Assembly: GCF_013046825.1 (NCBI RefSeq)
Contig: NZ_CP053187.1
Location: forward strand, 747,001 to 811,000
Direction: 5' to 3'
Origin: Turicibacter sanguinis
GTDB taxonomy: Bacteria; Bacillota_I; Bacilli_A; MOL361; Turicibacteraceae
Length of the DNA: 64,000 bases
Below the pieces are notes generated by a model, which was not told the DNA's origin, made no database searches, and worked only from the letters and a program-made list of their open reading frames with translations. Positions 28,260 through 43,712 of this stretch are shown here, piece by piece. The position numbers and the translations under genes were made by a program. Numbering within the stretch: the stretch's first letter is position 1; each line of letters starts with the position of its first letter.

Positions 28260-28319
28260 ACTTATGGTAAATCAGAAATCAAAAAAATAATTGGCCTATT
28301 TTCTTAATAACTGATAAAA

Positions 28320-28386
28320 CCCGTAGTCTACTCATTTACGGTGAGTAGGTAGAGACTTTCGGACCATATTTCCGATGATATACGAG
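28320..28386 (-). promoter_or_regulatory. guanine-class purine riboswitch aptamer
   Basis: The minus strand has the purine-aptamer pattern: P1 CTCGTA/TACGGG, loop L2 AATATGG, the core TCTCTACC, loop L3 CCGTAAA between CTACTCA and TGAGTAG, and GACTACGG at the 3' side. The cytosine in GACTA corresponds to the ligand-reading base, which specifies guanine or hypoxanthine rather than adenine. It precedes a terminator and pbuG, so ligand binding should stop transcription. Confidence 0.95.
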
Positions 28387-28410
28387 AGAAAAGATTCAAT
28401 TTACTACTTA

Positions 28411-42109: not shown

Positions 42110-42196
42110 ATGTGTGGAAATCAAGGAAATTCATGCTGTTTCATTTTAGTGTTATTTATTTTATTAGCTATTATTTCTTGCTGCTGCTGGCGTTAG
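42110..42196 (+). CDS. YjcZ-like hydrophobic micropeptide, 28 residues
   Basis: MCGNQGNSCCFILVLFILLAI and then ISCCCWR: a single membrane segment framed by cysteines. The Cys/Gly-rich start and the LVLFILLAII core strongly recall the YjcZ/YhjR-type sporulation micropeptides of Bacillota, which are 25 to 50 residues long. GAGGTG lies eight bases before the ATG and a very strong terminator follows the stop, so the gene is probably real despite its size. The role is unknown, and the assignment to the family rests on pattern alone. Confidence 0.65.
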   Translation: MCGNQGNSCCFILVLFILLAIISCCCWR

Positions 42197-42233
42197 TGAA
42201 TAATGCTATGAAACCTGAATAATATAGATGTGG

Positions 42234-42270
42234 GAAAGGGACTATCTCATTTGAGATAGTCCCTTTTTGT
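42234..42270 (+). terminator. terminator of the YjcZ-like gene
   Basis: AAAGGGACTATCTCA and TGAGATAGTCCCTTTTT form a 15-bp stem. Confidence 0.9.
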
Positions 42271-42432
42271 TTTACTAAAGCTGAGAATAATGTTATTTGA
42301 CACGTCTACGATTAACTCGTCCATAAGCAATTTTCCATATAATAGTGCGTTGAAAATACTTCATTGGTCTTATTCGAGATTGTCTCATCTAATACCAGTC
42401 CGTTACTTACATCTGTTTATCAATTAGCGCTA

Positions 42433-42787
42433 CCTAATTAATACCCCTAAAGGTCACCTCTTTTCAGAGCGTGCGCAGACTATATCTTCATCCTAAAAAC
42501 TATAGGAGCACCATTTTTCGAATTACCAATCACTTGTAATTCTACTCCCACGCAATGGGATAGTCGTTGAACGTTTTCCATATCACTGAGACTTAGGAAA
42601 TTCGCTGCTAAACATCCATTTTTCATAAACACTTAGGATTTAACCATATGTTCATCTCAATGTTTTTTTCTGCTTTCGCTACGTTCACGCTTATCTTTTC
42701 AGATGACGTTTTCGTACATTGAGCTTTAGGATTTCAAAGCAATTAACGGTGAGTATCTGCTAATCACTTAACAGACAGGGCTAGTAT
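42433..42787 (-). ncRNA. free-standing group I intron, no homing endonuclease
   Basis: The minus strand holds the full group I catalytic core. P1 pairs AAGGGGU with GCCCU across the predicted 5' splice site (after the U at 42788). P3 is UACUC/GAGUA, P4 uses AAUUGC and the Q-like GCGAAUU, P5 is CUCAAUGU/ACAUUGAG, P6 is UUUCC/GGAAA. P7 is GACUAU in the R element UUCAACGACUAU paired with AUAGUC in the S element GAUGAAGAUAUAGUC. P8 is GAAUUAC/GUAAUUC. The 3' boundary at 42433 is a guess from possible P10 pairing. The flanking exons show no tRNA or protein gene. It follows the TPR-like gene ending at 42858 without a terminator. Confidence 0.85.
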
Positions 42788-42857
42788 ACCCCTTTTTAGC
42801 ACAATCGTTTTTACGTGCTTATTAAAATCTATTCAACTTTACTAATTAATATACTAA

Positions 42858-43712
42858 TTAAAGTAACTCAGCCAAAGCACTAGCTTCTTCACTAGTCACA
42901 TCGATGGCACTAATCATCTCGTAATATATTTTAACTTCTTCCATCTTCCCATCATTGACTGCTATATTCGCTAACTCATAATATTCATTCACTGTTTCTG
43001 CTATAATATTCTCTCTTAATTGTGATAGCTCCTCTACTTGTGCATCAGTAGTTGCATATTTGACAGCTTCTTCTAAACTATTTAAGAATAATGAATAAAA
43101 TAATTTATGATTAAAATATGTTGATGCCTCTGTTTTCGCTCTATCTACATAATATTCAAATAGAACATTTTGATAATAATCGATTTTCTCTTGCGTTTCT
43201 TCAACGTTTACACCATATGATAATGCAAGTTCTAATTTCCCCATAATCATTAAGTATAAATGCTTATCATATAAATCATCAACTTCTTCGTAAATAGATT
43301 CTACTAACCTTTGAGCTACTACTTTTAATTCATCCTGCGCTTTTTCATATCGTTCTTCATCACTTGGAATAACATTTTGATAATAGTAATACGCACTATC
43401 ATAGTTTTTATTTTGATTTGCTCTTTCACCTTTTAAGTAGTTAGATTTTGAAGTAATTAATTGCTTCACTTCATCGATATTCTCTTCAATTACTTTTTGT
43501 TTAACTGCCTGATAAGCTTTTTCATAACTTACTAGGGCTCCTTCTAAGTCATCATTTAAAAGTGAAACTTTAGCACTTTGAATATTTTTATACATTTCGA
43601 TATAGCCCGGAGCTTCTTTTACAATAAAGAACATAAAAATAATTAGGAATAATCCGATTCCTAATCCAACTTTTTTTCGATTTGTAATAATCCAATTTTT
43701 GAAATTACTCAT
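42858..43712 (-). CDS. membrane-anchored helical repeat (TPR-like) protein
   Basis: A 284-residue protein with a short basic cytoplasmic start, one membrane segment (about 14-32) and a long extracellular all-helical region. Repeated patterns such as LLNDDLEGALVSYEKAYQAV near residue 50, NKNYDSAYYYYQNVIPSDEERYEKA near 103 and EYYELANIAVNDGKMEEVKIYYEMI near 245 look like degenerate TPR units. They suggest a protein-protein interaction role at the cell surface. No named family. AGGGG lies nine bases before the ATG. No terminator follows; the group I intron lies 70 bp downstream on the same strand. Confidence 0.8.
   Translation of the reverse strand: MSNFKNWIITNRKKVGLGIGLFLIIFMFFIVKEAPGYIEMYKNIQSAKVSLLNDDLEGALVSYEKAYQAVKQKVIEENIDEVKQLITSKSNYLKGERANQNKNYDSAYYYYQNVIPSDEERYEKAQDELKVVAQRLVESIYEEVDDLYDKHLYLMIMGKLELALSYGVNVEETQEKIDYYQNVLFEYYVDRAKTEASTYFNHKLFYSLFLNSLEEAVKYATTDAQVEELSQLRENIIAETVNEYYELANIAVNDGKMEEVKIYYEMISAIDVTSEEASALAELL

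Follow-up and report, generated by a model that had tools for sequence, protein, structure and literature searches.

A group IA2 intron of Turicibacter sanguinis that may split the ribosome-binding site of a 31-codon open reading frame, and related introns at spore-coat genes

The minus strand of the window, i.e. the whole 64,000-nucleotide stretch of Turicibacter sanguinis DNA analysed here, carries a real group I intron, whose match to the Rfam model lies far beyond chance. On a balance that tips slightly in favour of this view, the intron would split the Shine-Dalgarno (SD) sequence of a 31-codon open reading frame (ORF), the translation of which would follow splicing. The stronger result concerns related introns that lie outside the window and split the SD sequences of spore-coat genes. 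From the sequence of the window we infer that the intron splices, where exactly its 3' splice site lies, that the ORF is a gene and that its translation depends on splicing.

Identity, fold and boundaries of the intron

The intron matched Rfam family RF00028 (Intron_gpI; curated gathering threshold 50 bits) on the minus strand at positions 42810-42455 with 54.9 bits and an E-value of 3.7e-13 when a 701-base stretch was searched. The match was recovered again in a whole-genome search; a fast scan of the entire window gave no RF00028 match at the intron. The R element UUCAACGACUAU and the S element GAUGAAGAUAUAGUC form a perfect 6-bp P7, and helices P1, P2, P3, P4, P5/P5a, P6, P7.1, P7.2, P8, P9, P9.1 and P9.2 were also found. 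The presence of P7.1 (UCCCA/UGGGA) and P7.2 (GAAUUAC/GUAAUUC) between P7 and P3 placed the intron in subgroup IA2, and both strands of each of these helices are altered among relatives. In a table of 14 helices compared over five related introns, all helices except P7 varied in sequence with the pairing kept, the lone nonstandard pair being found in P6 of the cotZ intron described below. The initial annotation had claimed a group I intron from the R and S elements with their perfect 6-bp P7 and from helices P1, P3, P4, P5, P6 and P8, and had proposed the RF00028 search as a check. The score obtained is above the threshold, P7 was found as described, and the helices named are all present and covary among the five introns.

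The boundaries of the intron were set by a GG^U...GG^U rule read from the empty sites of relatives, and the sequence in the window fits insertion after GG, with a U opening the intron and GG closing it. The junction ATGGGG^T...ATATGG^TAATC of the closest phage lineage corresponds to ATGGGGTAAC in an intronless phage. The predicted P1 contains a U-G pair that adjoins an internal loop, and its U is, by the relatives' empty sites, the first base of the intron, as in BcISt1. A second candidate for the 3' splice site, AACGG^, is found after 42400, 5 nt further upstream; the UGG^UA site was preferred because the phage relative has the same UGG^UA and the SD spacing is better. The extent proposed initially, 42433-42787, was thus one base off at the 5' end and too short at the 3' end, since P9.2 extends to 42419 and the 3' splice is predicted to fall after 42395. 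There was no ORF of at least 60 aa between 41867 and 42858, hence no homing endonuclease and no transposase or TnpB part, and a tRNA scan of the stretch found none, in agreement with the initial view that tRNA exons and an endonuclease gene are missing.

Table 1. Features of the intron locus (positions in the window)
Feature	Position	Strand	Basis
Predicted complete group IA2 intron, 394 nt, ORF-free	42395..42788	-	RF00028, helix comparison, GG^U...GG^U rule
5' exon end AAAAAGGGG, first half of putative SD, P1 5' strand	42789..42797	-	Pairs with GCCCU
Internal guide sequence GCCCU	42777..42781	-	Pairs with 5' exon end; helix table
P2, 8 bp, GUGA loop	42756..42775	-	Helix comparison
P7 5' strand GACUAU (R element)	42560..42565	-	RF00028 match, helix comparison
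P7 3' strand AUAGUC (S element)	42478..42483	-	RF00028 match, helix comparison
P9.2 hairpin, GUAGCG loop common to related introns	42419..42442	-	Helix comparison
Intron-terminal GG, predicted 3' splice site CUGG^UAUUAG	42395..42396	-	UGG^UA also ends closest phage relative
Putative 31-codon ORF MRQSRIRPMKYFQRTIIWKIAYGRVNRRRVK and stop	42293..42388	-	AUG 6 nt past exon junction
Bidirectional Rho-independent terminator, 16-bp stem, after ORF	42233..42268	.	Sequence
Upstream 284-aa gene, no family assigned, also in congeners	42858..43712	-	ORF list, homologue search

The predicted exon junction in the window

Ligation of the exons at the predicted sites would give AAAAAGGGG|UAUUAG-AUG, with an SD sequence 6 nt before the 31-codon ORF; the string predicted for an intronless site is AAAAAGGGGTATTAGATGAGA. 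The energy of the duplex with the anti-SD sequence would change from -5.5 kcal/mol before to -8.2 kcal/mol after splicing, a value that is reached at 3% of random places; it falls inside the range of the window genes (38 long ORFs) and is stronger than the SD of 32% of them. An ORF of this length starting 4-10 nt from the junction is rare by chance, with frequencies of 0.6% in shuffled sequences and 1.6% over all positions of the window, the length threshold in the shuffle test being the observed ORF length itself. The stop codon ends 24 bases ahead of the terminator stem. The statement in the initial annotation that the intron has no recognisable host gene is probably wrong, since the predicted splice joins the SD sequence to this putative ORF, which we regard as the likely host gene.

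Other types of host were also considered. No protein-coding host interrupted in frame was seen, and no tRNA or tmRNA host was found by scan.

Two further elements of the window may be mentioned. A purine riboswitch aptamer is located at 28304-28405 on the minus strand (82.4 bits). A tiny membrane-peptide gene at 42110-42196 on the plus strand resembles the YjcZ-like sporulation family with 19.6 bits, just below the cut-off; in congeners it is kept next to galU, with two copies there in at least two of them.

Related introns at the spore-coat genes cotZ and cotJA

Related intron copies comprise a second one in the same genome (G000) and one in each of four congeners. The second G000 copy lies directly before a CotZ spore-coat gene, identified by Pfam PF10612 (E 2.6e-15), and the copies of G001, G003 and G004 directly before a CotJA gene that is followed by a CotJB gene. 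The copy of G002 (Turicibacter sp. UBA7094, contig C19; L011, L262) is an IStron with TnpB in yqxD, the exons of which join in frame as ACGG^...CGG^TTGAAATA, in keeping with the splice rule used for the window. This IStron also holds a small opposite-strand gene beside TnpB.

At cotZ, the empty site ACCTAGGAGGTGAGGATATGAGT stands against ACCTAGGAGG^T...AAGG^TGAGCTTATGAGT in G000, and the intronless CotZ genes of G001 and G004 begin ...ACCTAGGAGGTGAGGATATGAGT or ...ATCTAGGAGGTGAGGATATGAGT. At cotJA, the intronless G000 reads ATATGGAGGTGCAAACCGTTGATTTATAAT and G004 ATATGGAGG^T...TTTGG^TGCAAACGTGATTTATAAT. At the DNA level, both introns interrupt the SD sequence as GGAGG|UG and ligation would restore it 7 nt from the start codon. 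With GG present at either end, more than one exact splice bond would fit, whereas the ligated product is unambiguous. Predicted splicing would strengthen anti-SD pairing from -8.5 to -16.1 kcal/mol at cotZ and from -5.2/-6.3 to about -13 kcal/mol at cotJA. The two strands of P1 are matched in both lineages, as GGAGGU/GCCUCC in the cotZ and cotJA introns and as GGGGU/GCCCU in the window. The cotJA introns share about 90% nucleotide identity across the three species, in comparison to 57-61% identity of the CotJA proteins. Among the five introns of the SD type the window copy has the lowest RF00028 score (54.9 vs 69-89 bits).

The cotJA leaders (L008:1408-1496, L009:1405-1497, L010:1405-1497 and L038:1165-1262) have in common a structure of two hairpins whose apical loop UUGGAGGA is invariant, and 7 of the 23 pairs predicted for this structure are altered on both sides. 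The structure is present with and without the intron and is therefore a separate leader element; through its GGAGG it could compete for the intron guide. A short distance upstream of the cotZ and cotJA leaders, whether or not an intron is present, CATANNNTA motifs were seen by eye that resemble the -10 element of sigma factors active in the mother cell during sporulation (L007, L008, L009, L010, L038, L045, L046 and L048). The window intron, also judged by eye, has no clear motif of this type.

Lineages and distribution of the introns

In a tree of 70 introns the cotZ and cotJA introns formed one clade (95/92), and the window intron nested among phage introns (98/99 for the set of twelve). A single lineage for all five SD-type introns was rejected with 70 rows (p-AU 0.017) and had found no support in a first tree with 25 rows (0.063). 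By its sequence, the window intron is assigned to a separate, phage-type lineage, and the analogy with cotZ and cotJA is weaker for that reason. If the window ORF is real, the genus has seen at least two insertions of introns into SD sequences, or three with cotZ and cotJA counted apart.

Among eight genomes of the genus and family, the combination of SD target and matching guide sequence occurred once in each of four. The same pattern was found in none of 84,980 genomes or in viral contigs, a search that possibly left out near relatives of the window. Two overlapping searches of the family (395 and 392 genomes) gave other group I introns, and among those with flanks that were read none was at an SD sequence. 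The remaining group I introns of the genus are ordinary ones, in nrdD with GIY-YIG endonucleases. In G000 they interrupt the gene for anaerobic ribonucleotide reductase (L014:1-3193; L013, L015, L016), and the introns in nrdD of G001 are related to them.

Proposed mechanism and alternative explanations

Group I introns are spliced by guanosine attack, exon ligation and intron release, and the same course, with the attack after GG, is expected here. In the mechanism proposed here, an IA2 intron of the phage/IStron type would have been inserted after a GGGG motif that served as the SD sequence of the short ORF lying downstream. Before splicing, some 400 nt would separate the start codon from the 5' half of the SD, which would also be paired with the guide sequence in P1, and translation is taken to need splicing for these two reasons. 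Self-splicing with GTP, at GGGG^U on one side and CUGG^U on the other, would join AAAAAGGGG to UAUUAG-AUG; the ligation would place a usable SD 6 nt ahead of the AUG, and the 31-aa peptide could then be translated. The best reading of all the introns considered is that GG-targeting introns of the IStron or phage type land in SD sequences and would thereby make translation depend on splicing.

Why the introns are found at such sites is a separate matter. There is an even chance that landing in an SD is a by-product of a preference for GG-rich targets, with splicing rendering the introns harmless and no regulation involved. This would explain the presence of the introns and is compatible with the action of splicing proposed above. 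The genome has 33% GC and its GG-rich motifs are concentrated in SD sequences: in the window, 37% of GGAGG and 18% of GGGG occurrences fall in the SD zone, which comprises 3.3% of positions. Relatives also occur after GG within coding genes (phage tail fibre, yqxD), and the guide ACCCU of the phage relative nearly equals that of the window intron. Target preference alone may account for the SD sites, but both well-supported hosts are spore-coat genes, and the cotJA intron has been kept in three species with higher identity than the CotJA proteins themselves.

The last two observations speak for the introns being kept for a purpose. A further view, which we hold only tentatively, taken as a whole, is that Turicibacter has domesticated the introns as splicing-gated translation switches. 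In such a switch the anti-SD-like guide (GCCUCC) of the introns in spore-coat SDs would hide the SD in P1 until splicing, tying coat-protein synthesis to GTP level, time or compartment, and the same guide sequence would let the introns spread from SD to SD.

A less probable alternative to the proposed role of the window intron, though one to be taken seriously, is that the intron is active in an untranslated stretch, which may be the 3' portion of the transcript from the upstream gene or else an anonymous RNA, with the ORF fortuitous and splicing without effect on translation. The initial annotation had likewise considered a 3' UTR or an unknown ncRNA. The codon bias of the 31-codon ORF is weak: only 2% of gene windows are as low, and 12.5% of off-frame controls score as high. 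No homologue or protein family of the 31-aa peptide was found in congener, homologue and family searches. In G001 and G004, the congeners with a full homologue of the upstream 284-aa gene, this homologue is followed directly by a terminator and the syntenic gap holds neither the intron nor the ORF, so that no empty junction is readable there; the ORF was not found in the remaining congeners either. No convincing promoter was seen directly upstream of the intron. Against these points, an SD-like 5' exon followed at SD distance by the start codon of a sufficiently long ORF would arise by chance in about 0.6-1.6% of cases, and for four further introns of the genus a location at SD sequences is demonstrable.

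It is improbable that the window copy is a dead remnant that has lost splicing: its score is the lowest of the five, but its core helices are all intact with no mispair, P7 is perfect and P1 is preserved by matched changes on both sides. Least probable of all is an allosteric ribozyme, in which a ligand domain in the leader or intron would govern the choice of splice site as c-di-GMP does in Clostridioides difficile. The similar position in the message and the conserved cotJA leader hairpins, whose loop could pair with the guide, speak for it. Against it, no riboswitch family matched in the window stretch or at the four other loci, G000 has the structured leader at its intronless cotJA too, and only 60 bases lie between the upstream stop codon and the 5' exon motif of the window intron, leaving little room for an aptamer.

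Comparison with known systems

The group B IStrons resemble the window intron in the IA2 core, P7.1/P7.2 and P9.1/P9.2 and, by the boundaries predicted for the latter, in a 5' exon ending with GG, in U as the first intron base, in GG at the 3' end and in the placement of the U-G pair (PMC4227781). For one of them, BcISt1, RT-PCR has demonstrated splicing in vivo after GG with U as the first intron base (PMC4227781). They carry an IS component, unlike the window intron; the copy in yqxD of G002 is a true IStron of this type. Tourasse et al. 2014 mentioned an IA2 intron of Turicibacter, inserted at GGAGG, as related to such IStrons; the words Shine-Dalgarno and spore are absent from that paper, and SD or spore-coat hosts are not discussed there (PMC4227781). 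Their intron very likely belongs to the cotZ/cotJA lineage, given the same genus, subgroup and GGAGG insertion motif, whereas the window intron with its GGGG site is of a different lineage.

By the tree, the tail-fibre IStron of Silviavirus (e.g. PV017447.1, NC_030933.1) is among the closest lineages to the window intron. It has the target ...GGGG^U, the 3' end ...UGG^U and the nearly identical guide already mentioned, but it lies within a coding sequence and has a transposase gene downstream. At three Silviavirus loci (L268, L277, L279) the first part of the tail-fibre exon is annotated as a complete gene with the transposase next, and the host protein appears truncated in those records.

The allosteric self-splicing ribozyme of C. 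difficile was reportedly described by Lee et al. in 2010. In this c-di-GMP-II/group I system, splicing sets a ribosome-binding site beside the start codon (PMC9481103, PMC3984707), and a 2022 review found the arrangement in no other species (PMC9481103). No further natural allosteric group I intron is known. The initial annotation had rightly pointed to this leader intron for comparison. Like it, the cotZ and cotJA introns and, by prediction, that of the window are group I introns in mRNA leaders. Its suggestion of an allosteric ribozyme gained no support: the C. difficile ribozyme has a c-di-GMP-II aptamer, and searches of the window stretch and the four spore-coat loci gave no riboswitch aptamer. 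The likeness is therefore one of placement and not of membership, and the species and host genes also differ. That splicing brings a ribosome-binding site to a start codon is read from empty sites in the DNA at cotZ and cotJA and is predicted for the window ORF. The introns splitting spore-coat ribosome-binding sites of this gut genus would represent a second case, after C. difficile, of group I splicing placed to decide translation. Their anti-SD-like guide points to a simple way in which such introns could pass from gene to gene, and with them one can test whether bacteria use group I introns for control or whether these elements only hide where they do no harm.
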